Shown: in pieces, positions 38,049 through 56,538 of the stretch
Layout of the letters: each line of letters begins with the position of its first letter
Numbering within the stretch: the stretch's first letter is position 1
Assembly (NCBI GenBank): GCA_016194975.1
Contig: JACQAM010000016.1
Span: forward strand, 1-64,000
Length of the DNA stretch: 64,000 nucleotides
Origin: Bacteroidota bacterium
GTDB taxonomy: Bacteria > Bacteroidota > Bacteroidia > Palsa-965
Reading direction: 5' to 3'
Made by a program: the position numbers and the translations under genes
Notes under the pieces: generated by a model
Seen by the model: only the letters and a program-made list of their open reading frames with translations
Told to the model about the DNA's origin: nothing
The model's database searches: none

Positions 38049-41000
38049 GTGAAACGCGCCGCGACACTATTGCTTTTTTTATTTTTTTGTCTTCATCTTT
38101 CTTCACAGGACAAAGGGCTTTTCCGCCATTACACCATTGAAGACGGACTTTCACAGAATTCGGTTTTCGGAATCGTGCAGGATAAACAGGGATTCATGTG
38201 GATGGGAACGCTGGATGGTGTTTCGCGTTTCGATGGAAATCATTTTACAATTTTTCGTCCCGATCCCAACGACAGTAATTCCATTTCGCACAATTCGGCA
38301 CGCGCCATGCTCGCCGATCGTGAGGGAAATATATGGGCGGGAACAAAGAACGGCCTCAATGAATATGATCCGGCAAAAGGGAAATTCAAACATTATTTTA
38401 AAAGTACAAATGGGCTCGCCGGCAATAATATTCTCGCTCTTGCGCAGGACAGCAGTGGTAATATCTGGATCGGAACTTTTAAAGAAGGAATTTCTGTTCT
38501 CGATCCGCGTACCGGAAAATTCACCAATTACCGGCACGATGAAAAAAATAAAAATTCTCTTTGTGGGAATGATGTACGCGGCATCTGCTGTGCGCCCAAT
38601 GGGCATTTGTGGATAGCCACATGGTCGAACGGTGTTTGTGATTTTGATCCGAAGAAAAAATCATTCACTTCTTACAGTGATCACGAAGGAGATCTGCGTT
38701 TGAATTCTCCGAACAGCCGTGGCGCTATATGTGTCGATAGAAAAGGAAGAGTGTGGATAGGAACCTGGGGAAGAGGAATCGATCTGTTCGATCCGTCAAC
38801 AGGAAAAATGCAATATGAATACGATTCAACGGGCCCTGTTGCAGGAATTTTTTCCGGGATGGTGTGGTCGATTCACGAAGATCACAAAGGAAATATCTGG
38901 ATCGCTACAGCTGAAAACGGATTGTATGAAGTAGATCCTTCCACATGGACATGGAGAAATTTCAGGAATGATCCGAATGATCCGTGGACGATCAATGACA
39001 ATAATGTGTGGAGTGTTACGGAAGATAAAGGCGGACTCATCTGGACCGGAGGATGGCAGGGCGGAGTGAATGTTTATGATTCAAAACTCGAACGATTCGG
39101 ATTGATGAAAATGGATCCGAAAAACAATAATAGTCTTCCCGCAAATACGATTTGGTCATTTTGTTCTGACGGCGCTTCAGGATTATGGATCGGAACTTCT
39201 GCCGGCCCGGTTCATTATGAAACAGCGACAAAATTTTTTGAGCCACCACCACTTGATGATGCCATTGATCATACCAAAACTATCGGCGCGCCGAGTAATC
39301 GATCGAATATCCAGGGAATGTGCCGCGATCATTCCGGGAAAATCTGGATGGGAACTGCAGGAACCGGAGTGCATTGTTATGATCCTGTAACAAAAACATA
39401 CCAGCACTGGGAACCTGCGTCGGGCGCTCCGAATAATCTCAACGCAAGTACGGTCACCGATATTTTTTGTGATGATAATGGAACGGTATGGATTGCGGCT
39501 GGCTACGGAGATTTTCAGAAGTACGATCCTTCCATTGACGGTTTCATCAATATCCCATTCGAAAAATCAGACAGCATTTCTCCCAGCAACTGCGTTATAG
39601 GAATTGCACAGAGCGGCCCGCATCATCTTGTTATCGGACTTACCGGCGGGCAGGTTTTCGATCTCGACACAAAAACAAATAAATATTCGCTCATCTGGAA
39701 AAACCCGAATGAGATCGGGATCTCTACAATTTACATTGACAAACTCGGCATCCTGTGGATCGGTACTGCCGGTTCAGGATTGGTTTACAAAGCGGGAAAT
39801 AAAATTGTGACCGTTACCGAGAATGACGGATTGCCGAACAATGTGATCAACGGAATTGCAGAAGGTGATCACGGCGAAATTTGGATGAGTACCAATCGTG
39901 GTATCTGTTGTTTCGATCCTGCGCAGAGAAGTGTGCGTACGTTTTCAACCGATGACGGATTGCAGGGAAATGAATTCAACCAGAATGCGGTTTTCAAATC
40001 AGGCGACGGAAGAATATGGTTCGGCGGTGTGAATGGGATGAATATTTTTTATCCGAAAGATATTTTACCGAATCAAACGCCGGCACCTGCATTCATCACC
40101 GGGTTTTCTGTACTGAATAAAAAATATCCATTGACACAGGACATTCTTTTCACCAGTGATATTTCACTTACTTATCTCGATTATTTTTTCTCCTTCGATT
40201 TTGCCGGACTCGAATTCACCAATCCGAAAAAAAATCAGTTCAAATACATGATGGAAGGATTCGATGCCGATTGGGTGGACGCCGGAACAAGAAGATTTGT
40301 TACGTACACTAATCTTGATCCGGGCGAATACACGTTCCGCGTGCGCGCGTCGAACAACGATGGTTACTGGGGTGGAAAAGAAGCGGTGATACACATTACG
40401 ATCTCGCCTCCGTTCTGGAGAACAAAATGGTTTTATACGTTGTGCATTCTTTCTCTCATTCTCGGCGTGTGGCTTTTCATAAGGAGAAGAGAACGCATTC
40501 TCAGGAAGGAAAAAGAAGTTCTCGAGGAGAAAGTGAGTGAACGTACATTTGAGCTGCAGGAAGAAAAAGAAAAAGTTACGGCCGCACATAAAGACATTCG
40601 TGACAGCATCAATTATGCGCAGCGCATACAGTACGCGTTGCTCGCGCATGAAGAGCTACTGAAAAATAATCTGGCAGAAAGTTTTATTCTCTTTAAACCG
40701 AAAGATATTGTGAGCGGCGATTTTTACTGGGCTACTCTGCAGGGAGAAAAATTTTATTTGGCTATTTGTGATTCCACAGGCCACGGCGTACCCGGCGCCT
40801 TCATGTCGCTGCTGAATATTTCTTATCTCAACGAAGCCATCATTGAAAAGAAAATGAATGAACCCGGAAAAATTTTCGATCATGTGCGCTCGCGGCTTAT
40901 AGAAAATATTTCACAGGATGGGGGGAAAGACGGAATGGATGCAGTGTTGCTTTGCATCGACAGAAAAAATAATTCCATCACGTATGCGGCTGCGCACAAT

Positions 41001-41330
41001 GCGCCTGTGATCGTGCGTGGACAAGAGATCATTGTTTGTGAAACCGATAAAATGCCGGTGGGCAAAGGAGAAAAAGAGATTCCGTTCGCCACGCGCAAAC
41101 TTGAATTGCAAAAAGGAGATGCGCTGTATCTCTACACCGATGGATTCGCCGATCAGTTCGGCGGGCCGCTCGGGAAAAAATTCAAAGAAGCAAACCTGAA
41201 AAAATTATTGCAGCATATTTCTTCATTGCCCGTAGCAGAGCAGAAACAAAAAATGGAAGAAGAATTTGAAAACTGGAAAAAAGATCTCGAACAGGTGGAT
41301 GATGTGCTGGTGGCGGGGATCAGAGTTTAA
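38049..41330 (+). CDS. Reg_prop beta-propeller / Y_Y_Y sensor with SpoIIE phosphatase
   Basis: 1093 residues from a GTG start. Signal peptide (TLLLFLFFCLHLSSQ), then two seven-bladed propellers built of Reg_prop repeats (begins HYTIEDGLSQNSVFGIVQD; blade ends like GNIWIGT occur about a dozen times), a Y_Y_Y immunoglobulin-like domain (about residues 695-770), one transmembrane helix (FYTLCILSLILGVWLFI), a coiled coil, linker DSINYAQRIQYALL and a SpoIIE domain with IVSGDFYWA, DSTGHGVPGAFMS and YTDGFADQFGGP. The sensor half is that of hybrid two-component sensors that detect periplasmic ligands, here coupled to a PP2C phosphatase. Confidence 0.9.
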   Translation: MKRAATLLLFLFFCLHLSSQDKGLFRHYTIEDGLSQNSVFGIVQDKQGFMWMGTLDGVSRFDGNHFTIFRPDPNDSNSISHNSARAMLADREGNIWAGTKNGLNEYDPAKGKFKHYFKSTNGLAGNNILALAQDSSGNIWIGTFKEGISVLDPRTGKFTNYRHDEKNKNSLCGNDVRGICCAPNGHLWIATWSNGVCDFDPKKKSFTSYSDHEGDLRLNSPNSRGAICVDRKGRVWIGTWGRGIDLFDPSTGKMQYEYDSTGPVAGIFSGMVWSIHEDHKGNIWIATAENGLYEVDPSTWTWRNFRNDPNDPWTINDNNVWSVTEDKGGLIWTGGWQGGVNVYDSKLERFGLMKMDPKNNNSLPANTIWSFCSDGASGLWIGTSAGPVHYETATKFFEPPPLDDAIDHTKTIGAPSNRSNIQGMCRDHSGKIWMGTAGTGVHCYDPVTKTYQHWEPASGAPNNLNASTVTDIFCDDNGTVWIAAGYGDFQKYDPSIDGFINIPFEKSDSISPSNCVIGIAQSGPHHLVIGLTGGQVFDLDTKTNKYSLIWKNPNEIGISTIYIDKLGILWIGTAGSGLVYKAGNKIVTVTENDGLPNNVINGIAEGDHGEIWMSTNRGICCFDPAQRSVRTFSTDDGLQGNEFNQNAVFKSGDGRIWFGGVNGMNIFYPKDILPNQTPAPAFITGFSVLNKKYPLTQDILFTSDISLTYLDYFFSFDFAGLEFTNPKKNQFKYMMEGFDADWVDAGTRRFVTYTNLDPGEYTFRVRASNNDGYWGGKEAVIHITISPPFWRTKWFYTLCILSLILGVWLFIRRRERILRKEKEVLEEKVSERTFELQEEKEKVTAAHKDIRDSINYAQRIQYALLAHEELLKNNLAESFILFKPKDIVSGDFYWATLQGEKFYLAICDSTGHGVPGAFMSLLNISYLNEAIIEKKMNEPGKIFDHVRSRLIENISQDGGKDGMDAVLLCIDRKNNSITYAAAHNAPVIVRGQEIIVCETDKMPVGKGEKEIPFATRKLELQKGDALYLYTDGFADQFGGPLGKKFKEANLKKLLQHISSLPVAEQKQKMEEEFENWKKDLEQVDDVLVAGIRV

Positions 41331-41973: not shown

Positions 41974-42002
41974 AGTTTACAAAACGTTAACTAGGGCGTA
42001 AT
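41974..42002 (+). promoter_or_regulatory. Putative Pho-box-like triple repeat before TonB receptor
   Basis: AGTTTAC (41974), CGTTAAC (41985) and GCGTAAT (41996) are 7-bp elements with 4-bp spacers, an exact 11-bp period as in PhoB sites. The last ends 45 bp before the ATG. Another GTTAAC/ATTAAT pair with 11-bp spacing is at 41922-41939. Confidence 0.4.
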
Positions 42003-42047
42003 GTTCGTGTCATAGCATAACAAGTAATTCGCATTCAAGACATTTAT

Positions 42048-44915
42048 TTGATGCGCATTTTTTTACAATTTATAATTACCGTGTTTTTTTTCTCGCACAC
42101 AAATTTTTGTTTCTCGCAAACAAACAGTGAAACAGGATCAGTCAGCGGAACAATTTCAGATAAAGTAACTGGAGAATTATTGGGCGGCGCAGTTGTTTTC
42201 ATCGACAGCACTTCTGTTGGGAAAAAAGGAACAAGCTCGGATTTTGATGGAAATTACAAAATTACGGGAATGCCAATTGGAATTTACAAAATCCGATTTT
42301 CTGCGCAGAGTTACAAAACACAATTAATTACCGGCGTTGAAATAAAATCGGGACAAAAAAACATTGTGCTAAATGTTGTGATGGAACCTTCGACTGTTAT
42401 GGATTCGGAAGTTGTCATCAAGGAAATTAGAATTTCCAATACGGAAAGCAGTGTTGCGGCGGAAATGAAAAATGAAGACAAGGCCGTGAGCGTGATTGGC
42501 GGTGCTCAAATTTCAAAATCGCAGGACAGGGATGCAAGTGAAGTTGTGAAAAGAATTCCTGGTGTTACAATTATTGACAATCGTTTTATCATGGTGCGTG
42601 GATTGAGCGAACGATACAATTCCGTTTGGTTGAATGATGCCGGCGCACCGAGTATGGAAACCGACAAACGCGCGTTCTCTTTTGAAATGATTCCAAGTGG
42701 CATGGTAGACCGCATTTTAATTTATAAAACTCCTTCGCCCGAATTGCCAGCCGATTTCGCTGGAGGAATGGTGAAAATTTATACGAAAGCATTTCCGGAA
42801 AAAAATTATCTCAGCGTAAATTATCAAAATTCTTTTCGCGCGGGAACAACGGGAAAAACATTTTATTATAATTTGGGAAGTTCGATGGACAAATTCGGAA
42901 TCGATAACGGTTATAGAAATATGCCGGATGGCTCGCCAGATTATTTCAATCGCAGCAGCGCAACTAATACTCAACAAACATTGGCGTTTCACAACGACTG
43001 GGGAATTTTAAGCAAAGGTGCAATTCCTGATCAGCGATTCAGTTTGATGTATGCTGCACCGATTCATTTGAAAAATGGAATTTTATTTGGAAATACTTTT
43101 GGTGTCAGTTATTCAAATGTTTTTACAACTTATCAAATTCATCGGCAGGACTGGGACTCGCTTACGCAGACAGAAGATTACGCGGACATACAAAGCACAC
43201 AGACGGTGCGCACGAATGCAATTGAAAATTTTTCGATGCTTTTTGGAAACAATAAATTGGAATTTAAAAATTTGATAAATTCTCAAGGGAGAAGTTGGGT
43301 GACACAACGCGTGAGTAATTACCTCGATGGTCCAAGCGAAAAATCGTATGCAGAAGGTTATGAAAACAGATTGATTTATTCTTCACAGTTGGTTGGCGAT
43401 CATAAATCGAAAAATGGAAAGACAGAATATAATTGGACAGCGGGTTTTGGTTACACAGAAAGAAATGCTCCCGACTTGCGCCGCATCACGTACGCGAAAG
43501 CGCGCACAGCAGGTGACTCCATGTACAGTGCGCAAGTGGCACCGATTGTTGATCCGATTCACGGTGGAGGAAGATTTTTCGCGTGGCAAAACGAACGTGT
43601 GTATTCTTTCAATCAAAATTTCCGCCACACTTTTTATATCGGGGGTGATTCTGCAAAAAACAGATTTCATTTTGATGTGAACATTGGAACTTACGCCGAA
43701 TATAAATCGCGGCAATTTATTGCGCGAGTTATCGGCTATACAATCAATCCAAGTCAAACTGCTTATTATTTAAAATTTTTACCGATTGATCAAATTTTTT
43801 CTCCAGAAAATATTGGCGGCACCGGATTTAAAATGGATGAGATTACCAGCGCTTCGGATAAATACACTGCACAGAATTTACAAGTGGCGGAATATACCTC
43901 ATTGAGTTTGCCAATCGGGAAAAAAATAAAAATCGTGGGGGGAACGCGCTACGAGTTCAATCAACAGGCGCTTCAGAGTTTTGTAAATCAAGACAGCATC
44001 AATCCGAAAATCACAACGAAATTTCTGTTGCCATCTGTCAATGCAACTTACAACTTCAATGAAAAAACATTGATCCGTTTGGCTTACGGAAAATCCTTGA
44101 ACCGACCTGAGTTTCGGGAATGGTCTCCATTTTATTTTTACGATTTCGATTTTCTTGCAGGAACTTATGGCTCGCTTTATCCAACCGTTCTTGCGCCGCA
44201 AGGACAAGTTTTAAAAGTTGCGCAAGTTGATAATTACGACGCACGTTTTGAATTTTATCCCGGGCTTGCCGATTATATTCAGTTCGGAGTTTTTTACAAA
44301 TCATTGAAAGATCCTATTCAACAAGTGATTTTGAATTCGGGCGGAAGTGACAGTCGCGCGTTTTCATTTATCAATGCTGATTATGCGTTTACAGAGGGAA
44401 TTGAATTTGACATGCGGAAAAATCTTGCTGTGTTCGATACTATTTTTCAAACGCAAACATTTGGAAATTTTAATGTTGTTGCAAATTTCTCATTGATAAA
44501 AAGTCGACTTTATATAAGTGGTATTCAAAATCAGGCGGCTTCAAATCCGTTGCAGGGACAATCTCCTTATGTGGTGAATGGTGGAATTTATTATCAGAAT
44601 GATTCGATCGGATTTCAAGCTTCCCTTTTATATAATGTTTTCGGGCCGCGCCTTTTTTTGGTTGGCGCGCTTAACTATGCAAACATTGGCGAACTTCCCC
44701 GACAATCGCTTGACATTTCTGTTTCTCAAAAAATCTGGAAATGTTTTTCCCTGACTTTCGGAATTCAGAATATTTTGGATCAGCATGTCCGAATGGTTCA
44801 AGACACCAATAGAAATGGAAAATTTGAAAAGAATGGAATGGATGAGGAAATAATGGGATATAAATTGGGAAGATATTTTACAGCAGGAATAAAAGTGAAT
44901 TTAACTGGAAAATAA
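42048..44915 (+). CDS. TonB-dependent receptor with carboxypeptidase-like N-terminal domain
   Basis: 955 residues. Signal peptide, then a CarboxypepD_reg-like domain (about residues 30-115: GSVSGTISDKVTGELLGGAVVFI), plug domain (about 135-240, GVTIIDNRFIMVRGLSERYNSVWLND) and a 22-strand outer-membrane barrel ending in a terminal aromatic-rich strand (YFTAGIKVNLTGK). No TonB-box can be assigned with certainty. It should import a large or scarce substrate across the outer membrane; the Pho-box-like site upstream and the neighbouring genes suggest a phosphorus-containing one, which is inference. There is no SusD partner, which argues against a polysaccharide system. Confidence 0.92.
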   Translation: MMRIFLQFIITVFFFSHTNFCFSQTNSETGSVSGTISDKVTGELLGGAVVFIDSTSVGKKGTSSDFDGNYKITGMPIGIYKIRFSAQSYKTQLITGVEIKSGQKNIVLNVVMEPSTVMDSEVVIKEIRISNTESSVAAEMKNEDKAVSVIGGAQISKSQDRDASEVVKRIPGVTIIDNRFIMVRGLSERYNSVWLNDAGAPSMETDKRAFSFEMIPSGMVDRILIYKTPSPELPADFAGGMVKIYTKAFPEKNYLSVNYQNSFRAGTTGKTFYYNLGSSMDKFGIDNGYRNMPDGSPDYFNRSSATNTQQTLAFHNDWGILSKGAIPDQRFSLMYAAPIHLKNGILFGNTFGVSYSNVFTTYQIHRQDWDSLTQTEDYADIQSTQTVRTNAIENFSMLFGNNKLEFKNLINSQGRSWVTQRVSNYLDGPSEKSYAEGYENRLIYSSQLVGDHKSKNGKTEYNWTAGFGYTERNAPDLRRITYAKARTAGDSMYSAQVAPIVDPIHGGGRFFAWQNERVYSFNQNFRHTFYIGGDSAKNRFHFDVNIGTYAEYKSRQFIARVIGYTINPSQTAYYLKFLPIDQIFSPENIGGTGFKMDEITSASDKYTAQNLQVAEYTSLSLPIGKKIKIVGGTRYEFNQQALQSFVNQDSINPKITTKFLLPSVNATYNFNEKTLIRLAYGKSLNRPEFREWSPFYFYDFDFLAGTYGSLYPTVLAPQGQVLKVAQVDNYDARFEFYPGLADYIQFGVFYKSLKDPIQQVILNSGGSDSRAFSFINADYAFTEGIEFDMRKNLAVFDTIFQTQTFGNFNVVANFSLIKSRLYISGIQNQAASNPLQGQSPYVVNGGIYYQNDSIGFQASLLYNVFGPRLFLVGALNYANIGELPRQSLDISVSQKIWKCFSLTFGIQNILDQHVRMVQDTNRNGKFEKNGMDEEIMGYKLGRYFTAGIKVNLTGK

Positions 44916-44960
44916 TTCCATCCATTTTTCTTGACCTGTTTTTTTCGCGGAAATAATTTA

Positions 44961-44989
44961 TTTACAATTCTCGTCAACACTTTACAAAC
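44961..44989 (+). promoter_or_regulatory. Putative Pho-box-like triple repeat before T9SS exoprotein
   Basis: TTTACAA (44961), CGTCAAC (44972) and TACAAAC (44983) repeat at exactly 11 bp in the gap 44916-45158. TTTACAA is the complement of the TTGTAAA unit seen in the site at 52631. Confidence 0.4.
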
Positions 44990-45158
44990 TCCAATCATTT
45001 TAGCGTTGATAGAATAATGCAGGCGCAAAGACGTGATAATACTGCGTGGATACATTTGCCTGAATAAAAAAATTTATATGCTTTTTTTATTTCATCAACC
45101 CAATTCAATTTCAAAACAATCACGCCGAAACTAAGCATCGGCAAAAAATCAAAAACAA

Positions 45159-48100
45159 ATGAAAAAAAAATCGTTACACACACTCGGAATGATTCTGGTG
45201 CTGTTGTTGACAGGAATTTCAGCGAAAAATCTGAAAGCACAATCCGTCATCACCGTCCAGGATAGTATTTACACCAACACACATTGGACAGCATGTAACC
45301 AATATTTATTAATGGGTTACGTTTACGTTTGTCAAAATGCAATATTGACAATTGATGCCGGTGTAATTATCAAAGGCGACAAGAACACAAAAGGATCTTT
45401 AATCGTCGAACGTGGTTCCAAACTTTATGCAAATGGAACAGCTGCGGAACCAATTGTTTTCACTTCTAATCAAGCTCCAGGTTCTCGTACTTATGGCGAT
45501 TGGGGTGGAGTAATTCTTTGCGGTCGCGCATTTGTAAATTGGAATGGTGATCAAAGTCAGGTTGAAGGTGGACCACGTTCACTTTATGGTGGCGCAGGAA
45601 ATGATATGCCACACGATAATTCAGGTTCGATGTCTTATGTTCGAATTGAATTTGCAGGCGTCGCATTTTCTCCCAACAATGAAATCAACGGACTTACATT
45701 GTGCGGAGTTGGTGACGGAACAAATATTGATCACATTCAGGTTTCTTATTCCGGCGACGATTCTTTCGAATGGTTTGGCGGAAATGTGAATTGCAAATAT
45801 CTTGTCGCTTATCGCGGATGGGATGATGATTTTGATACAGACAATGGTTATCGCGGAAAAGTTCAATTCGGATGTGGAATTAGAGATCCTTTTGCAGCTG
45901 ACCAATCCGGTTCGAAAGCATTTGAATCGGACAGTTATCAATCTGGAACATTAACAGGATTAGCAGGAGACACAACTGGATTAACACGTCCCGTTTTTTG
46001 CAACATGACTGTGATTGGACCATTGGTAAGTCCAACTTCAACTGCTTATGATCCGCAATTTGTTTCCGCCGCGCATATTAGACGAGGAGATGCAATCAGT
46101 ATTATGAATAGTATTTTTGTTGGTTATCCTTGCGGAATATTGTTTGATCAATCATCAGCGAGTTATGGATCAACAACAAGAAATTATGAAATACTCGGTG
46201 CCGCAGGTGATTCAATCGGTCAACTTCGCGGAGATATTGTTTGCGGAATTCCTACAAACGCAACTCCAGTAAAAAAGGAATTGGAGTTTGTAATTGATGG
46301 CGCTCGCTCATTGACAAATACAGCAACGGAAGCTGATACAACATCTACTACTCCTTTCGGAAGTGCAACAACCGCTTCGTCATTTTCCGGTCCTTTCAAT
46401 TTATTTTTCGACAATCCTCAAGCGGGTCCTAAATATCAAAACTGGACTTATCCAACTGAACAAACCGGAGTACGTCTTGCAAATCCTTTCAACCTTGCAA
46501 ATCCAAATGAAGTTCCAACAAGTACTTCGCCTGTTTGTTATAACAGTAAAGCGCTGAGCACACTTTCAACAAATCCTTCCAATCCAAATCAATACACACA
46601 ATTTACAGCGCATTATGGAAATTCAAATCCATTCAACAACGGAAGTGTATTTCCTTTCAATCCAATGTTGCCGATAAATACTGACACGACAATTTGGTTG
46701 TCACATTACAATGCCCCAACACGATTACCGGTTTGGAACAGCGGAAAATTGAACAGCCCTTTCTTTACGCAAACAAATTATGTTGGTGCATTTTCAGGAA
46801 CACAAACTACAGCGGATGATTGGATGAACGGATGGTGCAATTTCGATCCGGTTAATACTCCTTATAATTTAACGGGTGCTCCCGCTGCAACAATTACTGC
46901 TGCTGGCTCAACAACAATTTGTCCTTCTGGTGGATCAGTTGTGTTGAATGGAAATTCAGGAAGTGGTTATACTTATCAGTGGATGTTGGCTAACGTAAAC
47001 ATTAACGGCGCAACGAACCAAAGTTATACTGCAACTGCTGCTGGAACTTACAATCTCGTTGTTACAAATTCAACAGGATGTTCTACAACTTCTGCAAACC
47101 TTGTTGTATCAACGTATGCTGCACCAACGGCAACCATCACTGCCGGCGGGCCAATTACTTTCTGTCAAGGTGGAAATGTAACATTGACTGCAAATAATTC
47201 TTCCGCATACAGTTGGAGCAATGGTTCAACAACTCCTTCCATTACTGCAAATACAGCTGGAAATTATTTGGTAACAATTACTGATGTAAACGGTTGTCAA
47301 GCGACTTCATCGGCAGTAACTGTTGTTGTGAATCCACTTCCGAATGCAACAATTACCGCAAGTGGTCCGACATCTTTCTGTACAGGCGACAGTGTAATTC
47401 TAACTGCGAATGCTTCTGCATCTTATTTATGGAGCACACTTGCAACTACACAAAGCATCACCGTTTACAATTCCGGAAACTATACTGTGCAAGTTACAAA
47501 TGCGAATGGTTGCCAATCGACCGTTTCTGCACCGATAACAGTTTCTGCAAGTGCATCTCCTGCTCCAACAATTACAATCACAGGAAACACTTCAATTTGT
47601 CAAGGTGATATGGTAACACTTACTGCTTCTCAAGGTGATACTTACATGTGGTCGCCAGGTGGACAAACAACACAAAGCATTACTGTTGGAACTGCCGGAA
47701 CTTATAACGTAACGGAAACAAACAGCAATGCTTGCAATGGAACAGGAACATCACAAAATGTTGTTGTCACCGTTCACCCACTTCCTGTTGCGAGTTACAC
47801 TTACAATTCCACCAACATGCCGACAGTTGTTTTCACGAACGGTTCTACCGGTGCGACAACTTACACTTGGGATTTTGGCGATTCAAATTCTTCTTCGAAC
47901 CTGAGTCCTACTCACACGTATTCCGGGAATGGAAATTACACGGCTTGTCTCACTGCAATGACTTCTTTCGGTTGTGCTGATTCAGTTTGTATGCCAATCA
48001 TGATCAACGTGGGAATCAATACTGTTACTCCTGCAGGTGAAACAACAACTCTTTATCCAAATCCAGCGAACGAGCAAATCAATTTGGAAATGAATGTTCT

Positions 48101-48290
48101 TTCCGATAAAGAAGTTTCGATTGTTGCTTACGACGTAACGGGAAAATTAATGATCAACGAAAATCGCGCACTCACTTCCGGAAACAATTTGATGACATTC
48201 GATGTTACCAATTGGGATAACGGAATTTATTTCCTCCGCATCATCAACGACGGAAAAGTGAATACGATGAAAGTGATGATCAACAAATAA
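45159..48290 (+). CDS. Large T9SS-secreted protein with beta-helix, Ig-like repeats and PKD domain
   Basis: 1043 residues. Signal peptide, then a right-handed beta-helix-like domain (about residues 30-560) with Cys pairs and the hallmark DAGVIIKGDKNTKGSLIVE and GDWGGVILCGRA. Four to five Ig-like repeats of about 80 residues follow (ATITAxGxTxICxGxxVxLTA, about 575-900), then a PKD domain (TYTWDFGDSNSSSNLSPTHTYSG) and a C-terminal T9SS sorting domain (LYPNPANEQINLEM..GIYFLRIIND). It should be exported by type IX secretion and attached to the surface. It follows the TonB receptor gene; pairs of this kind occur in other Bacteroidota, so a surface partner role is plausible. The DNA is AT-rich. 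Confidence 0.88.
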   Translation: MKKKSLHTLGMILVLLLTGISAKNLKAQSVITVQDSIYTNTHWTACNQYLLMGYVYVCQNAILTIDAGVIIKGDKNTKGSLIVERGSKLYANGTAAEPIVFTSNQAPGSRTYGDWGGVILCGRAFVNWNGDQSQVEGGPRSLYGGAGNDMPHDNSGSMSYVRIEFAGVAFSPNNEINGLTLCGVGDGTNIDHIQVSYSGDDSFEWFGGNVNCKYLVAYRGWDDDFDTDNGYRGKVQFGCGIRDPFAADQSGSKAFESDSYQSGTLTGLAGDTTGLTRPVFCNMTVIGPLVSPTSTAYDPQFVSAAHIRRGDAISIMNSIFVGYPCGILFDQSSASYGSTTRNYEILGAAGDSIGQLRGDIVCGIPTNATPVKKELEFVIDGARSLTNTATEADTTSTTPFGSATTASSFSGPFNLFFDNPQAGPKYQNWTYPTEQTGVRLANPFNLANPNEVPTSTSPVCYNSKALSTLSTNPSNPNQYTQFTAHYGNSNPFNNGSVFPFNPMLPINTDTTIWLSHYNAPTRLPVWNSGKLNSPFFTQTNYVGAFSGTQTTADDWMNGWCNFDPVNTPYNLTGAPAATITAAGSTTICPSGGSVVLNGNSGSGYTYQWMLANVNINGATNQSYTATAAGTYNLVVTNSTGCSTTSANLVVSTYAAPTATITAGGPITFCQGGNVTLTANNSSAYSWSNGSTTPSITANTAGNYLVTITDVNGCQATSSAVTVVVNPLPNATITASGPTSFCTGDSVILTANASASYLWSTLATTQSITVYNSGNYTVQVTNANGCQSTVSAPITVSASASPAPTITITGNTSICQGDMVTLTASQGDTYMWSPGGQTTQSITVGTAGTYNVTETNSNACNGTGTSQNVVVTVHPLPVASYTYNSTNMPTVVFTNGSTGATTYTWDFGDSNSSSNLSPTHTYSGNGNYTACLTAMTSFGCADSVCMPIMINVGINTVTPAGETTTLYPNPANEQINLEMNVLSDKEVSIVAYDVTGKLMINENRALTSGNNLMTFDVTNWDNGIYFLRIINDGKVNTMKVMINK

Positions 48291-48291
48291 T

Positions 48292-48315
48292 CCTTCGACT
48301 TTGCTCAGGGTGACA
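48292..48315. repeat. Dispersed CTTCGACTTTGCTCAGG-type repeat, copy 2
   Basis: Second copy of the repeat at 15655-15679, directly after the T9SS protein stop codon. Confidence 0.55.
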
Positions 48316-48373
48316 ATGTTGTCATTGAATTAATAAAGTCGAGAAAAACTAAAGAGTATTCTTTAGTAGTAAG

Positions 48374-48407
48374 AAAAGGGTCGCTTCAGAAATGGGGCGG
48401 CTCTTTT
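48374..48407 (+). terminator. Putative terminator after T9SS exoprotein gene
   Basis: AAAAGGGTCGC (48374-48384) pairs along its length with GCGGCTCTTTT (48397-48407) with two G-U wobbles; the 3' arm ends in TTTT. Confidence 0.65.
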
Positions 48408-48551
48408 GAATTTATACTTGTTAATCGATTATTGTTCCTGAAAAAAATTTCCGATTAAAAATAAAAATAGAACCCTAACCTCTTCATAATACTCACACCA
48501 CATTGTGGCGGTAGATTTGCTTTAAATATTCCTAAAGTGAAAAACAAACAA

Positions 48552-48953
48552 ATGAAAATTCTCATCGTGGATGATGAGCCGGATATCCGAGAATTCATTT
48601 CCTACAATCTCCTTCGAAGAGGTTACATCGTAATTACCGCCTCTGATGGTAAAGAAGGAATGGATTTGGCACTGGAATTCAAACCTGATCTTATCATTCT
48701 TGACGTACTCATGCCAGTGATGAACGGATACGAAACCTGCATTGAATTGCGGAAGAATCCGATTTTCGATAAGACAAAAATTATTTTTCTTTCTGCATTA
48801 AACGAATCAACTGCAAAAGATTTTGGTTTGAAATTGGAAGCTGATGCGTTTATCGGCAAACCCATCAGAATAGAATTATTGTTGAAACGAGTTGAATTGT
48901 GGCTGACGTCAAAGCTATTGCCAATTTATTTTCTTCCACCTGCCACTACTTAA
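48552..48953 (+). CDS. Receiver-only response regulator (possibly truncated)
   Basis: 133 residues. A complete CheY-like receiver: acidic pair in ILIVDDEPDI, phospho-acceptor Asp in DLIILDVLMP, Ser switch in FLSALNE and Lys in GKPIR. Its last 15 residues (TSKLLPIYFLPPATT) do not look like a receiver helix or a winged-helix linker, so a DNA-binding domain may have been lost by frameshift. A GTG start 15 bp earlier (48537) is possible. It could take part in phosphorelay without direct DNA binding. Its N-terminal coding DNA resembles the remnant at 54845. Confidence 0.85.
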   Translation: MKILIVDDEPDIREFISYNLLRRGYIVITASDGKEGMDLALEFKPDLIILDVLMPVMNGYETCIELRKNPIFDKTKIIFLSALNESTAKDFGLKLEADAFIGKPIRIELLLKRVELWLTSKLLPIYFLPPATT

Positions 48954-49099
48954 ATTCCTGAACGAAGTTATTGGCATTAACATTTTTTGAAATCGCCAAT
49001 TTTTCATAAGAACATATTGACTTTGTGTTTTGCCCGTTAACAGAGTATGAAGAATTCACATCCTGAATTCCCTACGCAAAACACAATGATAGTACAAAC

Positions 49100-49972
49100 G
49101 TGATTGCCCCTTCATCTTCCCTTGATATTGAAAAGGGAAATTTGTTCAACCAAAATAAGGTGAAGAAAACACGATATAAAACAATCATTCTTTCCGACAT
49201 TCATCTGGGTACGTCGACATCCAAAGCGAAAGAAGTCATTCATTTCCTCAAACATCTCAAATGCGAAAAGCTCATTCTTAATGGAGACATTATAGATGGT
49301 TGGCAATTGAAAAAATCCGGAGAATGGGAAAAGAAACACACAAAATTTATCCGACTCGTTTTAAAACTCGCATCGAAAAAAACAAAAATCATTTACATCC
49401 GTGGCAATCACGATGATTTTCTGGATGAAGTTCTTCCTTTCACACTCGGCAACTTTTCAATTCGCCTGGATTATTATCTGGAATCGGGTGATAAAAAATA
49501 CTATGTAGTTCATGGCGACATTTTCGATATGGTCACAACCAAATTGAAATGGCTTGCCAAACTCGGTGATGTGAGTTACACTTTTTTGCTCTGGCTGAAC
49601 AAACATTACAATAATTGGAGAGAAAGACGCGGGCAATCCTATTATTCGCTTTCACAAGTCATCAAGGTAAAAGTAAAAAGCGCAGTCAGTTTCATTTCCG
49701 ATTTCGAAACACAATTGGCTTCCGTCGCGAAAAAGAAAAAATGTGATGGAGTTATCTGCGGACACATCCATACGCCCGCGAATAAAATGATTGGAAACAT
49801 TCATTACCTCAATAGTGGCGATTGGGTGGAATCGTTGACCGCACTTGTTGAAACGTATGAAGGGGAATGGAAAATTATTTATTACACAGAATGGTTGAGA
49901 GAATTGGAAATGCATTTGTCAACGGAATCGGAATTAGAAACGGATAATGTTCGTGAACTAAAAACCAATTAA
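49100..49972 (+). CDS. PlcP-like calcineurin metallophosphoesterase (LpxH-related)
   Basis: 290 residues with a GTG start. All metal motifs are visible: ILSDIHLGTST, LNGDIIDGW, IRGNHDDF, VVHGDIFD and VICGHIHTPA. The tail (NSGDWVESLTALVE), WLAKLGDVSYTFLLWLNKH and VKVKSAVSFISDFE match the group usually annotated UDP-2,3-diacylglucosamine diphosphatase that includes PlcP, the phospholipase C used by marine bacteria to strip phosphate from membrane lipids when phosphate is short. Four bp before the glycosyltransferase gene; with the lipid kinase they form a likely operon. True LpxH is the alternative, but it is usually shorter and not linked to these genes. Confidence 0.85.
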   Translation: MIAPSSSLDIEKGNLFNQNKVKKTRYKTIILSDIHLGTSTSKAKEVIHFLKHLKCEKLILNGDIIDGWQLKKSGEWEKKHTKFIRLVLKLASKKTKIIYIRGNHDDFLDEVLPFTLGNFSIRLDYYLESGDKKYYVVHGDIFDMVTTKLKWLAKLGDVSYTFLLWLNKHYNNWRERRGQSYYSLSQVIKVKVKSAVSFISDFETQLASVAKKKKCDGVICGHIHTPANKMIGNIHYLNSGDWVESLTALVETYEGEWKIIYYTEWLRELEMHLSTESELETDNVRELKTN

Positions 49973-49976
49973 TGAT

Positions 49977-51119
49977 ATGAAATCCAAAGTTCTATTTGTA
50001 GTCCAGGGCGAAGGCCGCGGCCACATGACGCAAGCGGTTTCTCTTCGACAATTACTCGAGAAAAATGATTTTGAAATTTGTGGCGCAATTGTCGGCACAA
50101 GCGAACGAAGAACAATTCCTGATTTTTTTCACAAACAATTTTCAGAAATTCCCGTAGTGAGAATGCAAAGTCCGAATTTCATCACCAAAAACAATCGGGG
50201 AATAAATATCGGCGCAACTGTGTGGCATAATTTGAAACGAATCAGAACCTATCTCCGCTCCGCAAAATTGTTGAAACAAAAAGTGGCAGAATGGAATCCT
50301 GAAATCATCGTCAACTTTTATGAGCCGATGGTAGGATTGTATTCAAAAACAACTCACAAAAGCAAACGGCCTCCGATCGTTTGCATTGCACATCAATACC
50401 TTGGTGACCATCCCGATTTTGAATTTCCACAAGGACATAAAATAGACAAAATTTTTCTGAAGAATTACACGCGTTTGACTTCTGCCGGTGCGGAAAGAAT
50501 TCTTGCGTTGTCTTTTTCACAATTGGCATCTTCAAATGATGAAAAATTAAAAGTTGTTCCTCCGCTGCTTCGCCGGGAAGTAAAAACATTGTCGGTGAAC
50601 AAGCGCGGTTATTATCTCTGCTATCTTGTCAACGCGGGTTACAGAAATGATATTGAAAACTGGCACAAGAAAAATCCAGAAATTTGTTTGCATGTTTTTA
50701 CCGATATGGAATCGGAAAGGGAATTTATTGAAGTTCACGAAAATCTTTTTTTTCATCGACTGAGCGACATGAAATTTCTCGAGTACATGGCAAGCTGCAA
50801 CGGCTTGATCAGTACTGCGGGATTTGAATCGGTTTGTGAGGCTTTTTATCTCGACAAACCGGTTTTTATGGTTCCCGTCGAGGGACATTTCGAACAACTG
50901 TGCAACGGTCATGATGCACAACGCGCCGGAGTTGGAATTTTTGATTTGAAATTTGATATTTGGAAATTTTTGGATTGGCTTCCCAAACACCAATCGATGT
51001 CGGAATCATTCCGCAAATGGGAATCAAAAGCGGAAAATCTTTTTGTGAAAAATTTCAATGAAGTGTTGGAAGCGAATGCACCGGCAGATCCCTTGTCATC
51101 AGAATTACTTCCTGTTTAA
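49977..51119 (+). CDS. Glycosyltransferase (GT28/Glyco_trans_1_3-like)
   Basis: 380 residues, cytoplasmic or peripheral. The N-terminal acceptor side has the GRGH motif (VVQGEGRGHMTQAVSLRQLL) as in MurG/MGDG-synthase-like GT-B enzymes, and the C-terminal nucleotide-sugar side has GLISTAGFESVCEAFYLDKP followed by MVPVEGHFEQLCNG, the usual donor-binding pattern. Acceptor unknown; the four-base gap to a PlcP-like gene makes diacylglycerol or another membrane lipid the best guess. This is not the GT4-type Agt known from alphaproteobacterial PlcP-Agt pairs. Confidence 0.82.
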   Translation: MKSKVLFVVQGEGRGHMTQAVSLRQLLEKNDFEICGAIVGTSERRTIPDFFHKQFSEIPVVRMQSPNFITKNNRGINIGATVWHNLKRIRTYLRSAKLLKQKVAEWNPEIIVNFYEPMVGLYSKTTHKSKRPPIVCIAHQYLGDHPDFEFPQGHKIDKIFLKNYTRLTSAGAERILALSFSQLASSNDEKLKVVPPLLRREVKTLSVNKRGYYLCYLVNAGYRNDIENWHKKNPEICLHVFTDMESEREFIEVHENLFFHRLSDMKFLEYMASCNGLISTAGFESVCEAFYLDKPVFMVPVEGHFEQLCNGHDAQRAGVGIFDLKFDIWKFLDWLPKHQSMSESFRKWESKAENLFVKNFNEVLEANAPADPLSSELLPV

Positions 51120-51152
51120 TCCAATATTTTATTTCCCATTTATTTCCCAATT

Positions 51153-52043
51153 ATGAACCGAAAGAGAATTGCTTTTGTCATTAACCCGAATTCTGGAAGT
51201 GACAAAAAAACGGATCGCGTCAAGCTCATTCGCAGTTTGGTCAATTATTCCTACGACAGTGAAATTATTCTCTGGAAAAATATTTCTGATCGCGATGAAA
51301 TTTTTCAAAACATCGTAACTGGAGAATTTGATATCGCCGTTGCAGTTGGAGGTGATGGAACCGTGAGTCAATTGGCCGAAGTTTTGTGCGGGACAACTAT
51401 CGCGCTTGGAATTATTCCATTCGGTTCGGGAAATGGTCTTGCACGTCATTTGGGAATTCCGTTAAAACCATCGGCAGCAATGAAATTATTGGAAACAGGT
51501 GTGGTGAAAAAAATTGATCGTGGAAGAATTAATCATCGTTCTTTTTTCTGCACTGCAGGAGTTGGATTTGATGCACACATTGGAAAATTATTTGCAGAAA
51601 GCGATTCACGAGGATTCTGGACCTATGGCAAAATGACTTTAGCGGAATTCCGTTCCTATCATTCGGAAAATTACACGATTGTTATTGACGGAAAGAAATT
51701 TGAACGAAATGCTTTTCTCATGACCATTGCAAATGCCGGACAATATGGAAACAATGCGTGGATCGCACCAAAGGCAAATGTGAGGGACGAAATTTTACAT
51801 TTTTCAATTTTACTTCCCTTCCGGTGGTGGAACATGATTGGAATTGCAGGAAAAATGTTCGGAAAAAAACTCGACACGTCTCGATTTCTTGAAAGTTTCA
51901 GTGGAAAGAAAATTACAATTACAAGGAAATCGGAAGGAGCAATTCATTATGATGGTGAACCTGATTTTATGGGAACAGAGTTAATTGCCTCAATTGACAC
52001 TGCGGTCTTGAATGTAATCGTTTCCGAAAATTTCAAAGGTTAA
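51153..52043 (+). CDS. Diacylglycerol/lipid kinase family protein
   Basis: 296 residues with the DAGK/sphingosine-kinase fold: INPNSGSDKK near the start, VGGDGTVSQLAEVL (nucleotide loop GGDGT), IIPFGSGNGLARHLG and the late IHYDGEPDFMG. It phosphorylates diacylglycerol or a related lipid alcohol. Thirty-three bp after the glycosyltransferase gene on the same strand. In a lipid-remodelling operon it could return excess diacylglycerol to phosphatidate, or act when phosphate returns; this is inference. Confidence 0.88.
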   Translation: MNRKRIAFVINPNSGSDKKTDRVKLIRSLVNYSYDSEIILWKNISDRDEIFQNIVTGEFDIAVAVGGDGTVSQLAEVLCGTTIALGIIPFGSGNGLARHLGIPLKPSAAMKLLETGVVKKIDRGRINHRSFFCTAGVGFDAHIGKLFAESDSRGFWTYGKMTLAEFRSYHSENYTIVIDGKKFERNAFLMTIANAGQYGNNAWIAPKANVRDEILHFSILLPFRWWNMIGIAGKMFGKKLDTSRFLESFSGKKITITRKSEGAIHYDGEPDFMGTELIASIDTAVLNVIVSENFKG

Positions 52044-52241
52044 TTCATATTTCAATCGGTAAAATTTTATTGAGTTAGAAAATTGTAAGTAGATTATTCC
52101 CTCTGATAAATTACAATCCGTTTTTTGGATAACCCCAACTTTACAAATCAGATTCCGAATTTACACTTACTTCATTCTTTAATGAGTTTGATTTTCCCGA
52201 GTCATGGAGGATTTTCATTAGTTTTACACCAGAAAATTTCC

Positions 52242-52574
52242 ATGAAAAAATTTCTTGCTCTTATTTTTCTTTTTGCAATTCGGTTTTCTCTTTTCGCAGG
52301 AAACACAAACGGCGATGTAATTTTCATGAGTGGAAATGTGACCGACAAAACCACACACGAAACGCTTGCAGGCGTACAAGTGCATGTGATTGGAACCGAC
52401 ATTAATGTTTACACGGATTTCGACGGCAATTTTTTTATTCCAAATCTTCCCCGCGGTTCATACCAATTGGAATTTAGTTACATCACCTATAAAACAACCC
52501 AAGTAGTGAATGATCCTGAAACTTCAGGGTGCGATTATTGCTCCACGCTTTCAGTGGAAATTCAGCAGAACTAA
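52242..52574 (+). CDS. Small secreted carboxypeptidase-regulatory-like protein
   Basis: 110 residues from ATG 52242 (signal peptide MKKFLALIFLFAIRFSLFAG). The mature part is one CarboxypepD_reg-like beta-sandwich (SGNVTDKTTHETLAGVQVHV..YTDFDGNFFIPNLPRGSYQLEFSYITY), the same domain that begins the TonB receptor at 42048, but here alone. Function unknown; it may be a surface or periplasmic accessory. The gap 52044-52241 shows no other gene, and the longer frame from 52125 precedes the signal peptide. Confidence 0.75.
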   Translation: MKKFLALIFLFAIRFSLFAGNTNGDVIFMSGNVTDKTTHETLAGVQVHVIGTDINVYTDFDGNFFIPNLPRGSYQLEFSYITYKTTQVVNDPETSGCDYCSTLSVEIQQN

Positions 52575-52630
52575 TTTTCCAATGTTAAGTTTTTCATTGC
52601 AGGAGAAAATATCATGCTTGAAAATCATTG

Positions 52631-52659
52631 TTTTACGGATATTGTAAAATTCCTGTAAA
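52631..52659 (+). promoter_or_regulatory. Putative Pho box (best match) before YwqK-type gene
   Basis: TTTTACG (52631), TTGTAAA (52642) and CTGTAAA (52653), 4-bp spacers ATTC/GATA, 11-bp period. TTGTAAA-ATTC-CTGTAAA resembles the E. coli PHO box CTGTCAT-AWAW-CTGTMAY. It ends 81 bp before the ATG. Confidence 0.45.
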
Positions 52660-52740
52660 CTAATCATTATGTAAAGTTCAATCGACGCTCGAAATTTGTA
52701 TTGTTAACGTTATGGCATCAATAACCAAAAACTAACAGTC

Positions 52741-53214
52741 ATGAAAAAATTCGCGCTTCTTTTGTTTCTTTTTGCCGGTTCAATTTTTTCGTTGAACGCG
52801 CAAAGCATTTTTATTGCAAACGGATTGTATGTTGACGCATCAGGAAATTTATTTACCGGACAATTCACGGAACATTTTGCAGATGGTGCAAAAAAATCTG
52901 AAATCAATATTATCAAGGGAAAAGCAAATGGAGTTGCAGTTTATTTTTATGAGAGTGGAAATAAAATGGAAACGGGACGTTATTTGGATGGATTGCGCGA
53001 TGGATTGTGGGAAAAATGGAATGACACAGGAATTAAAATTGGCGAGGCAAATTACCTTTCAGGCGTGAAAGATGGAACTTGGCTGGTGTGGAATGACGAT
53101 GGAAAAGAAATGATGGAAATGCATTATTGCAAAGGTGAAAAATGCAAAACCTGGAGAATGTGGAATGGGGACGGAACACTTACCGGCGAACGGGTTTATT
53201 CAGAAGCACAATAA
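52741..53214 (+). CDS. Secreted YwqK/MORN-variant repeat protein
   Basis: 157 residues with signal peptide (MKKFALLLFLFAGSIFSLNA). It then has six to seven repeats of about 21 residues of the pattern GxxxGxWxxWxxxGxKxxExxY (for example GLRDGLWEKWNDTGIKIGEANY, GVKDGTWLVWNDDGKEM), the MORN_2/YwqK family. Such proteins are common in Bacteroidota; function unknown. A Pho-box-like site lies upstream, which ties it to the putative phosphate regulon. Convergent with the next lipoprotein gene. Confidence 0.75.
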   Translation: MKKFALLLFLFAGSIFSLNAQSIFIANGLYVDASGNLFTGQFTEHFADGAKKSEINIIKGKANGVAVYFYESGNKMETGRYLDGLRDGLWEKWNDTGIKIGEANYLSGVKDGTWLVWNDDGKEMMEMHYCKGEKCKTWRMWNGDGTLTGERVYSEAQ

Positions 53215-53236
53215 AAAAATCATGATTGGGGATTCC

Positions 53237-53956
53237 CTATTCGCCAAATGACGCAAGCAAATAATTCAAAAGAATTGTTTGACTGCCATTCGCTTTCGCT
53301 TCGGCGGAAATTTTCATCACCGTACAAGAATTTTTAATCCAGGAATTTTGATCCAACTTTTTTATTTCACAGATTTCTTTTATCTCTTTTTCAGATGCAA
53401 GATGCAGCATCACTGTAAATCTGTTTTTGGGAATGAGAAACCAACAGACGGTAATTCCATCTTTTCTTTTATTTATTCCAGTCTTGTTTTTCAAAACAGG
53501 AAAATCATTCATCTTGAAAATAACGGAGGAAGTATCCAATTTTCCAGTGAAAAAAGCCGCAAACAATAAATCAGCATTCGGATTCCATTGCGCACCCATG
53601 GGGCCGCCACCGCCATTGTTAAAGAGATTATCGTTGCTGTCAATGTTTTTTCCATTCACAGAATCAAGAAATGTTTCCAACCACTTCGACAAAATTTCCG
53701 ATTTGGGAGTTCCGGCATATTTATCATTCAAAACGTAAAAACAAGCCAATTCAGCTTCCGAAATTTTTCGGGGAGGAAGTTCTGTTATTTTTTGAATTTT
53801 GGAAGAATCAACAAAAACAGTTTTAGAAATTATGCTGTCGACCTTTTCGTTTGATTTATTTTCCCCGCACGCAGAAAATAGAAATGGCACAATGGGAAAA
53901 AGAATTTGCAATCTGCGCATTTGAAATTTGATCATCATTTTTTCATTTCGTTTCAA
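53237..53956 (-). CDS. Hypothetical lipoprotein downstream of PhoB-like regulator
   Basis: 239 residues at most; lipobox LFSACGEN. The start is uncertain: the frame opens at 53956, overlapping the regulator gene by 14 bp, and a Met at 53938 (MMIKFQMRRLQ) leads straight into the signal peptide. The mature domain (about 40-230) has no recognisable motif; a Gly/Pro-rich loop (NNGGGGPMGAQWNP) lies in the middle. Overlap with the regulator gene suggests a shared transcript and a possible signalling or sensing link. Confidence 0.65.
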   Translation of the reverse strand: MKRNEKMMIKFQMRRLQILFPIVPFLFSACGENKSNEKVDSIISKTVFVDSSKIQKITELPPRKISEAELACFYVLNDKYAGTPKSEILSKWLETFLDSVNGKNIDSNDNLFNNGGGGPMGAQWNPNADLLFAAFFTGKLDTSSVIFKMNDFPVLKNKTGINKRKDGITVCWFLIPKNRFTVMLHLASEKEIKEICEIKKLDQNSWIKNSCTVMKISAEAKANGSQTILLNYLLASFGE

Positions 53957-54647
53957 AACAATAACCTATTCCCCTCACCGTCTTGATAAATTGTTCGCCG
54001 ATTTTATCCCGCAGTTTTTGAATGTGCACATCAATCGTTCGATTGTTTCTTCCATATTCCCCTCTCCAAATTTCCTGATAAATTTCTTCGCGCGTAAAAA
54101 CTTTTTTTGGAGTGGCAAGCATTAACGCAAGTAATTCAAATGCCTTTCGTGGCAAAATAATTTCTTCATTTCCTTTTACAACAAGATAACGTTCACGATT
54201 TAATTTGATTGCTCCGGCTTCCACCGATTTATTAAAATCATTCGAACGATGACGTTTCAAAATCGCTTTCACGCGCATCATCAAAACATTTGGACGAACA
54301 GGTTTAATAATATAATCGTCGGCACCAACGGAAAAAGCTGCAATTTGTGAATAATCTTCGCTTCTGGAAGTGTAAAACGCGATGAATGTTTTTTTCAAGG
54401 ATGGAATTGATTTTATATCGTGGCAAACTTCTATTCCATCCATTCCTTGTAAAACCAATTCCAATAAAACAAGATGCGGTTGGAAAATTTTTGAAATTTC
54501 AATCGCTTCTTTTCCATTATTACAAGTCACAACCTTGAAGTCGGCGTTTTCAAAAATGTTTTTGAGTGCATCCAAAAAAATTTCGTCAGTATCCACCAAT
54601 AACAGGCGGTAGGATTCTTTTTCTCGGGAAAATGAATTTGCTTGCAC
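53943..54647 (-). CDS. OmpR/PhoB-family response regulator with Glu at the phospho-acceptor site
   Basis: 234 residues. A receiver domain (12-125) and a winged-helix Trans_reg_C domain (about 145-232) with FTREEIYQEIW, NRTIDVHIQKLRDKIG and VRGIGYCFE. The receiver is odd: where PhoB-like proteins have Asp (LLDLMLPG) the codon is GAA, giving LLELVLQGMDG (E63), and the N-terminal acidic pair is LLVDTDE, with Thr where the second Asp is expected. Lys in YIIKPV and a Thr switch (YTSRS) remain. Glu often mimics phospho-Asp, so it may be constitutively active or regulated otherwise. No histidine kinase is in the window. Phased repeats stand just upstream, suggesting autoregulation. Confidence 0.9.
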   Translation of the reverse strand: MQANSFSREKESYRLLLVDTDEIFLDALKNIFENADFKVVTCNNGKEAIEISKIFQPHLVLLELVLQGMDGIEVCHDIKSIPSLKKTFIAFYTSRSEDYSQIAAFSVGADDYIIKPVRPNVLMMRVKAILKRHRSNDFNKSVEAGAIKLNRERYLVVKGNEEIILPRKAFELLALMLATPKKVFTREEIYQEIWRGEYGRNNRTIDVHIQKLRDKIGEQFIKTVRGIGYCFETK

Positions 54648-54648
54648 A

Positions 54649-54699
54649 TTGTAAAACTATCCTTCCCAGATTGTAAGGTCATTAAGCCGATATTAAGTT
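54649..54699 (-). promoter_or_regulatory. Phased TTGTAA repeats upstream of PhoB-like regulator
   Basis: TTGTAAA (54649) and TTGTAAG (54671) are 22 bp apart, and TTAAGCC (54682) and TTAAGTT (54693) continue the 11-bp phase on the plus strand. Directly before the regulator start, so autoregulation is possible. Confidence 0.35.
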
Positions 54700-55657: not shown

Positions 55658-55665
55658 TATATTTG
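55658..55665 (+). promoter_or_regulatory. -7 element for MORN protein gene
   Basis: TATATTTG, exact consensus, 21 bp before the ATG at 55687; this rejects the earlier start at 55663. Confidence 0.6.
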
Positions 55666-55686
55666 AAAATTAAAACCACCAGTCCT

Positions 55687-56538
55687 ATGAAAAAATTATT
55701 CTTCCTCCCCGCATTTATTTTCATTTACAATTTTTCTTCTGCTCAAGGATGCGTTTCCGGCGACTGCATGAATGGTACAGGAAAAATGACATTCTCCACC
55801 GGAGAAGTATACGAAGGCGGATTCAAAAAAGGAACATACAGCGGTCATGGTACAATGACTTTTGCCAATGGCGACGTGTATAGCGGAAATTTCAAGAATG
55901 GAAAAAGAAACGGCCAGGGTGTAATGACTTTCCCTGAAGGAACAAAATACGACGGGCAATGGAAGAATGACGATTACGAAGGGCAGGGCACCATGTATTT
56001 TGCCAGCGGGCAGGTTTACGTTGGTCAGTGGAAAGCGGGAGAAATGTGCGGCAAAGGAACCACTACTTTTCCCAGTGGAGAAAAATATACAGGGCACTAC
56101 GAACACAGTAAGAGAAGCGGGCAGGGAACGATCACTTTTGCTTCCGGAGAAAAATATTCCGGCAACTGGGCCGATGATAAATATGAAGGGCAGGGAACAC
56201 TTACCTATGCGAACGGGGATAAATACGTGGGGGAATTTCACACAGGGAACATGGAAGGAAAAGGAACGTACACGTATACGACAGGAACAAAATATACCGG
56301 CGACATGAAAAACAATTTATTCGACGGAAACGGAACGATGATCTTTAAATCGGGAGAAAAATATATCGGGCAATTCTCCGATGGAAAACGGAACGGCACT
56401 GGCACCATGACTTTTCCCAATGGAACAAAATATGAAGGAGAATGGAAAGATGATGAATACGATGGCCATGGAACAATGACCTACCCGAACGGAACAAAGA
56501 AAACGGGGACGTGGAAAAATAATGAGTACGTAGGATAG
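55687..56538 (+). CDS. Secreted MORN-repeat protein
   Basis: 283 residues from ATG 55687. Signal peptide (FFLPAFIFIYNFSSAQ) then eleven consecutive MORN repeats of 23 residues, of the form GxGTMTFxxGxxYxGxWKxxxYx; nothing else. MORN arrays make extended beta-hairpin ribbons that bind lipids or proteins in eukaryotes; bacterial secreted ones are of unknown role. The repeats are very regular, so copy number may vary between strains. No sorting domain, so it may stay periplasmic. Confidence 0.88.
   Translation: MKKLFFLPAFIFIYNFSSAQGCVSGDCMNGTGKMTFSTGEVYEGGFKKGTYSGHGTMTFANGDVYSGNFKNGKRNGQGVMTFPEGTKYDGQWKNDDYEGQGTMYFASGQVYVGQWKAGEMCGKGTTTFPSGEKYTGHYEHSKRSGQGTITFASGEKYSGNWADDKYEGQGTLTYANGDKYVGEFHTGNMEGKGTYTYTTGTKYTGDMKNNLFDGNGTMIFKSGEKYIGQFSDGKRNGTGTMTFPNGTKYEGEWKDDEYDGHGTMTYPNGTKKTGTWKNNEYVG

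Follow-up and report, generated by a model that had tools for sequence, protein, structure and literature searches.

Genes at the locus

A candidate phosphate-starvation island was analysed in a Bacteroidota genome of 4.1 Mb (99.8% complete, G000), within a stretch of 64,000 nucleotides, here called the window, which corresponds to bases 1-64000 of contig C16. The window very probably contains genes induced by phosphate starvation, including a set predicted to remove phosphate from membrane lipids and to put their lipid core to new use. On the plus strand, a TonB-dependent receptor is followed by an exoprotein of the type IX secretion system (T9SS), a receiver protein, a metallophosphoesterase, a glycosyltransferase (GT) and a lipid kinase; small genes come next, and past them a regulator is encoded on the minus strand. 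The features are as follows.

42048-44915, plus strand: TonB-dependent receptor with a carboxypeptidase-regulatory domain (PF07715 and PF13620 above cut-off)
45159-48290, plus strand: T9SS-secreted exoprotein of the Flavobacterium johnsoniae FI/FII/FIII family, with a sorting tail (PF18962, Por secretion)
48374-48408, plus strand: putative terminator-like stem with T's between the exoprotein and receiver genes, read from the sequence and kept in the sister species G001
48537-48953, plus strand: single-domain response-regulator receiver (PF00072, 90 bits)
49100-49972, plus strand: PlcP-type metallophosphoesterase, predicted cytoplasmic phospholipase C (PlcP clade, invariant metal-binding motifs)
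49977-51119, plus strand: GT-B glycosyltransferase, MJ1255/VC2487-like (PF13528), 4 bp after the PlcP gene
51153-52043, plus strand: YegS/BmrU-type lipid kinase (PF00781, PF19279), 33 bp after the GT gene
53943-54647, minus strand: OmpR/PhoB-type response regulator, a paralogue of the PhoB encoded on contig C14 of the same genome (49% identity)

An original prediction, made before this analysis, had placed a trio of phosphoesterase, GT and kinase at 49100-52043, with gaps of 4 and 33 bp, in one block with a TonB receptor and a T9SS exoprotein; the coordinates of the open reading frames agree with it. The receptor is the counterpart of the TonB-dependent transporter (TBDT) adjoining phoBR in F. 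johnsoniae, and it is 70% identical to the protein of G001 and 33% identical to that of G057, a genome from another family. Exactly three homologues of the exoprotein (34-44% identity) are found in F. johnsoniae, fitting FI, FII and FIII, one of them in the phoBR locus. The receiver contains no output domain and is 80% identical to the protein at the same position in G001. Consensus scans for promoters and terminators performed no better than on shuffled sequences and did not pick up the stem at 48374-48408.

The phosphoesterase, glycosyltransferase and kinase

In a maximum-likelihood tree of 42 sequences, the metallophosphoesterase of the window groups with the Pseudomonas aeruginosa PA3219-type and F. 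johnsoniae PlcP proteins (support 100/100). The second copy in the genome falls in the opposite clade, also at 100/100, together with Escherichia coli LpxH, which forms a long branch and whose exact placement is unsure. The tree thus rules out an LpxH identity for the window protein. The P. aeruginosa sequence was taken from a plasmid record, where a GT gene lies directly downstream and a cyclase gene comes next, an order that fits PA3219-PA3218; judging from these neighbours and from PMC8528852, it is presumably PA3219. The window protein is 44% identical to this type, the metal-binding motifs DxH, GDxxD, GNHD, HGD and GHxH are invariant, and the score against the LpxH model misses the cut-off (41.8 bits, cut-off 134). 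An LpxH-like protein of ~250 residues with a weak match occurs in most of the relatives sampled; a subset encodes a PlcP-like protein with a strong match, usually alongside the first. On these sequence criteria the phosphoesterase is a PlcP, with a predicted phospholipase C activity giving diacylglycerol (DAG). It had originally been called PlcP-like, with clustering with LpxH proper named as the outcome that would speak against this; it lies instead in the PlcP clade, apart from the genome's own LpxH.

The GT belongs to a different class from the GT4-type Agt, as had been proposed, although not to the one first suggested. It matches PF13528 (126 bits, cut-off 25), and the initial GT28-like label has to be dropped, the C-terminal GT28 domain PF04101 scoring 17.0 bits, under its cut-off of 22. 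The score against TIGR00661 (MJ1255/VC2487) is 111 bits and does not reach the cut-off of 195.9. No GT4-type match was obtained with PF13439 (21.7 bits, cut-off 28.5), whereas P. aeruginosa Agt1 matches GT4-type models in the profile search. The residues invariant across 21 orthologues include the motif around TAGFESVCEA, and GHFEQ, which we take to resemble the donor-binding motifs of GT1/GT28 enzymes. The nearest solved structures by profile are general UDP-glycosyltransferases, matching the donor-binding part only, and single-sequence structure models were too poor for a fold search (mean pLDDT 43 for the GT and 28 for the exoprotein). The window GT has no match in F. johnsoniae. A second, MJ1255-like GT lies beside phoBR on contig C14 and is 38.5% identical to the GT adjoining phoBR in F. 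johnsoniae; as a candidate orthologue of the PlcP-linked GTs it was ruled out, with zero matches between them.

The conservation of the unit was surveyed in 65 distinct Bacteroidota loci with PlcP, after duplicates had been removed by hand. A GT of the window profile is located directly downstream of PlcP in ~42 of them, about two thirds, and two further loci show a PlcP-adjacent GT by tblastn only. In Flavobacterium, PlcP stands alone. The kinase follows PlcP and GT in ten loci, namely the window, eight others of its genus and family, and G026, from another family; one more, truncated, contig is consistent with the same order. The trio, whose joint conservation had been put forward as a test by neighbourhood search, is kept throughout the PlcP-bearing loci sampled from the window's family, and also in one other family, and it is only there that the kinase, correctly described as an addition, joins the pair. 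G003, a 99% complete genome of the same genus, is without PlcP. In the gut anaerobe Parabacteroides distasonis (L053, 6001-7820), a PlcP with 61% identity is followed by the same GT type.

The lipid kinase label is borne out by the DAGK catalytic domain (PF00781, 88 bits, cut-off 23.6), the YegS C-domain (PF19279) and an invariant GGDGT motif; the score against TIGR00147, 102 bits, is slightly under the cut-off of 118.65. By these criteria it is a YegS/BmrU-type kinase, with DAG as its predicted substrate. A paralogue with 67% identity is found at C23:73430-74323 (L230). Two copies are present in the host genome and in G001, and a single one, inside the trio, in G006 and G007. Because the protein occurs class-wide, and considering these copy numbers and the 67% identical paralogue, it looks as if the kinase was recruited to the PlcP unit first and, in the order that we infer, duplicated afterwards.

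Predicted Pho boxes and the phoBR neighbourhood

Reading of the promoters yielded a direct repeat with an 11-bp period, TAAY-N7-TAAY(-N7-TAAY). The pst operon (C13:19028-25770, L212), in which the identity of PstS was confirmed (381 bits vs 205), is preceded by a porin-like gene, before which TAAY half-sites follow one another four times at a spacing of 11 bp. Of the four exact triples in the whole genome, three precede the pst porin and pstS genes. Since the reversed control pattern is commoner (seven exact triples), the number is not raised, and it is the location of the triples, not their count, that constitutes the evidence. Four repeats of this kind precede genes of the block.

41977-42015, plus strand: Pho-box-like direct repeat TTAC/TAAC/TAAT/TCAT with 11-bp spacing, before the receptor; the best of the window (41977, 12.0 bits; 41988, 13.1 bits)
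45015-45045, plus strand: degenerate Pho-box-like repeat before the exoprotein, <9 bits; outer half-sites present in G001, 13.8 bits there
48476-48494, plus strand: two-half Pho-box-like repeat before the receiver, <9 bits, kept in G001; the consensus triple at 48465-48490 matches 11/12
54670-54695, minus strand: Pho-box-like triple repeat before the regulator, 11.3 bits, the best outside the receptor promoter

The matrix behind the scores was built on 20 half-sites in the promoters of pst and phoB (C14) and in those of G057 and F. johnsoniae; the window and G001 contributed none, and none precedes a PlcP gene. By chance, 0.57 sites of at least 11 bits are expected per 64 kb. A consensus allowing 11 of 12 positions matches four times in the 64 kb on both strands, always in promoters of the island, with 2.05 matches expected; because this consensus was drawn partly from those same promoters, the matrix is the independent test. 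The four sites of the original prediction are real and beyond chance, and the TAAY-N7-TAAY repeats, shared with the pst and phoB promoters, are predicted Pho boxes, clear before the receptor and the regulator and weak before the exoprotein and the receiver. Across the phylum, sites of at least 10 bits precede 14 of 44 phosphoesterase genes and 9 of 556 others (1.6%; Fisher p 8e-12), the 44 including two LpxH negatives, both without sites, and related genomes that were counted together and are not fully independent. In the F. johnsoniae PlcP promoter, the score stays under 10 bits, with no more than two half-sites present.

Regarding the regulators, the PhoBR pair of the genome lies at C14:5895-7751 (C14:5895-8845 with the adjoining GT, L100). 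The window regulator was considered as the genome's PhoB and ruled out, the true PhoBR being on C14; the proposed OmpR/PhoB type stands, and the protein is a paralogue. In G001, the true phoBR is divergent beside the receptor, exoprotein, receiver and trio, with 74% identity to the response regulator and 60% to the kinase of the C14 pair. G057 has phoB beside the receptor, the exoprotein and PlcP, and G026 has phoB near the trio. The PUSIV-type phoBR locus, in which phoBR is next to a TBDT and an FII-type exoprotein, is therefore seen in G001 and, as phoB, in G057, and is absent from the window. The order in F. johnsoniae CI04 is GT, porin, phoR, phoB, TBDT and FII exoprotein (Fjoh_0541-0546). 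At low phosphate, the published fold-change column for F. johnsoniae DSM2064 gives 8.0 for the TBDT, 9.9 for FII, 5.4 for the GT and 8.6 for PlcP, while the porin and phoR of the locus do not rise; the authors class this GT, of the same broad family as that of the window, under lipid remodelling (PMC8115612). This induction of homologues counters the lack of a phosphate response in relatives that had been named as a possible refutation. The idea of the block as one regulon is directly supported by the Pho box of pst, the enrichment of boxes before PlcP genes and the phoBR or phoB synteny in three other genomes; taken to mean one transcript, it is less exact.

Two MORN-repeat-like proteins (52741-53214 and 55663-56538), for which no phosphate link was found, are encoded on either side of the window regulator. 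The stretch just upstream of the block, 37989-41330, reads as encoding a large sensor of the propeller type that ends in a SpoIIE-like phosphatase.

Proposed lipid remodelling, its alternatives and known systems

The interpretation that we favour, with a probability of about 0.7, is a PhoB-controlled phosphate-starvation locus that couples phosphorus gain at the outer membrane with lipid remodelling by PlcP, GT and kinase. We infer the regulation in this organism, the enzyme activities, the glycolipid product, and the substrate and role of the kinase, and the mechanism would be the following. At low phosphate, PhoB would bind the TAAY-N7-TAAY repeats and activate two gene sets. The receptor and the T9SS-secreted, FII/ElpS-like exoprotein may aid phosphorus gain at the outer membrane. 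In the second set, the receiver-PlcP-GT-kinase unit, PlcP would cut the head groups off membrane phospholipids to give DAG, part of which the GT would cap with a sugar, yielding a phosphorus-free membrane lipid. The kinase would convert DAG to phosphatidic acid, which would hold down the level of free DAG and allow phospholipids still to be made. PlcP-Agt glycolipids have been proven in marine bacteria and P. aeruginosa (PMC4796936, PMC8528852), and PMC5082522 names both PlcP and DagK as PHO-dependent lipid-remodelling proteins of Pseudomonas putida. More tentatively, Bacteroidota may have swapped the GT4-type Agt for an MJ1255/VC2487-type GT, with the kinase added in the window's family and one transcript splitting DAG between glycolipid and phosphatidic acid, a scenario that we hold to be quite possible, if short of probable.

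Besides the commoner reversed triples and the relatedness of the genomes behind the box enrichment, several observations weigh against the phosphate-starvation locus as proposed. The matrix scan found no box directly upstream of the window PlcP gene, and the box of the receiver promoter is short. Throughout the class the kinase is common, in most genomes without linkage to PlcP, and in the majority of family members the receptor-exoprotein pair does not accompany the trio. The GT induced at low phosphate in F. johnsoniae is nearer to the C14 GT than to that of the window. Finally, Dokdonia, the only phosphorus-starved flavobacterium in PMC4796936, accumulated aminolipids and not glycolipids.

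The alternative that survives best, which we nevertheless consider unlikely, retains a Pho-regulated island in which a DAG glycolipid is not the product of the GT: recycling of DAG and release of phosphate would be all that PlcP and the kinase do, the GT acceptor would be an envelope glycan or polyprenol, and aminolipids would be the replacement. The Dokdonia aminolipids fit this, as do the solved relatives of the GT, similar in the donor-binding part only, and a family among whose members no tested DAG activity was found. Against it stand the close association of PlcP with the GT throughout the phylum, the comparable plcP-agt pairs of proteobacteria, for which glycolipids are proven, and the lipid-remodelling class given to the F. 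johnsoniae GT. Distinctly unlikely is an arrangement in which the trio and the receptor-exoprotein pair are separate neighbouring units, just one of them phosphate-responsive; the trios without the pair, the terminator-like stem and the missing PlcP box point that way, and the receiver promoter box kept in G001, the boxes enriched upstream of PlcP genes and phoB near PlcP in three genomes point the other. Still more doubtful is a kinase acting on a sphingoid or ceramide lipid, in an island that would remodel sphingolipids and not glycerolipids. YegS-type kinases vary in substrate and Bacteroidota often make sphingolipids, but DAG is the PlcP product in tested cases, and DagK is named PHO-dependent in P. 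putida. An LpxH serving lipid A synthesis, suggested by relatives that are automatically annotated as UDP-2,3-diacylglucosamine diphosphatase and by LpxH being the closest solved structures, is already contradicted by the separate clade, the missed LpxH cut-off and the presence, here and in related genomes, of another gene that is truly LpxH-like.

In the main text of the open-licence papers searched, PlcP is not described with this GT family or this operon make-up, and no Pho-box definition for Bacteroidota was found. If the favoured interpretation is true, phosphorus-sparing lipid remodelling in Bacteroidota uses a GT of its own, for which a candidate gene is named here. The repeat TAAY-N7-TAAY(-N7-TAAY), seen in promoters of pst, phoB, TBDT, exoprotein and PlcP genes, offers a working definition of the Pho box in Bacteroidota.

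The window shares with the PlcP-Agt operon of SAR11 and P. aeruginosa (PA3219-PA3218) a PlcP orthologue (44%), a GT directly downstream and Pho control, and differs from it in the MJ1255/VC2487-like GT in place of the GT4-type Agt, the lipid kinase that follows and the Bacteroidia host. The F. johnsoniae PUSIV/phoBR locus (Fjoh_0541-0546) and the orphan PlcP Fjoh_4577 have in common with it a TBDT and FII-type exoprotein, the PhoB link, a GT of the broad family and PlcP, and these F. johnsoniae genes are induced at low phosphate. There, however, PlcP is unlinked and the GT comes from another branch, whereas in the window's genome phoBR is on another contig and the PlcP-GT-kinase unit joins the block. 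In Caulobacter, the low-phosphate-induced exoprotein ElpS (CC0170) is encoded beside the TonB receptor CC0171, like the receptor-exoprotein pair of the window, but its release depends on the type II secretion system instead of T9SS, and the available part of the source reports no PlcP unit adjoining; its homology to the window exoprotein is indirect, through the comparison with F. johnsoniae FI-FIII in PMC8115612. Pseudomonas putida BIRD-1 has both PlcP and DagK in its Pho response, as PlcP and kinase are combined here, with no common operon described in the accessible text. Each of the components has precedents in other bacteria; what is new is their arrangement in one locus, with a different GT and a lipid kinase.

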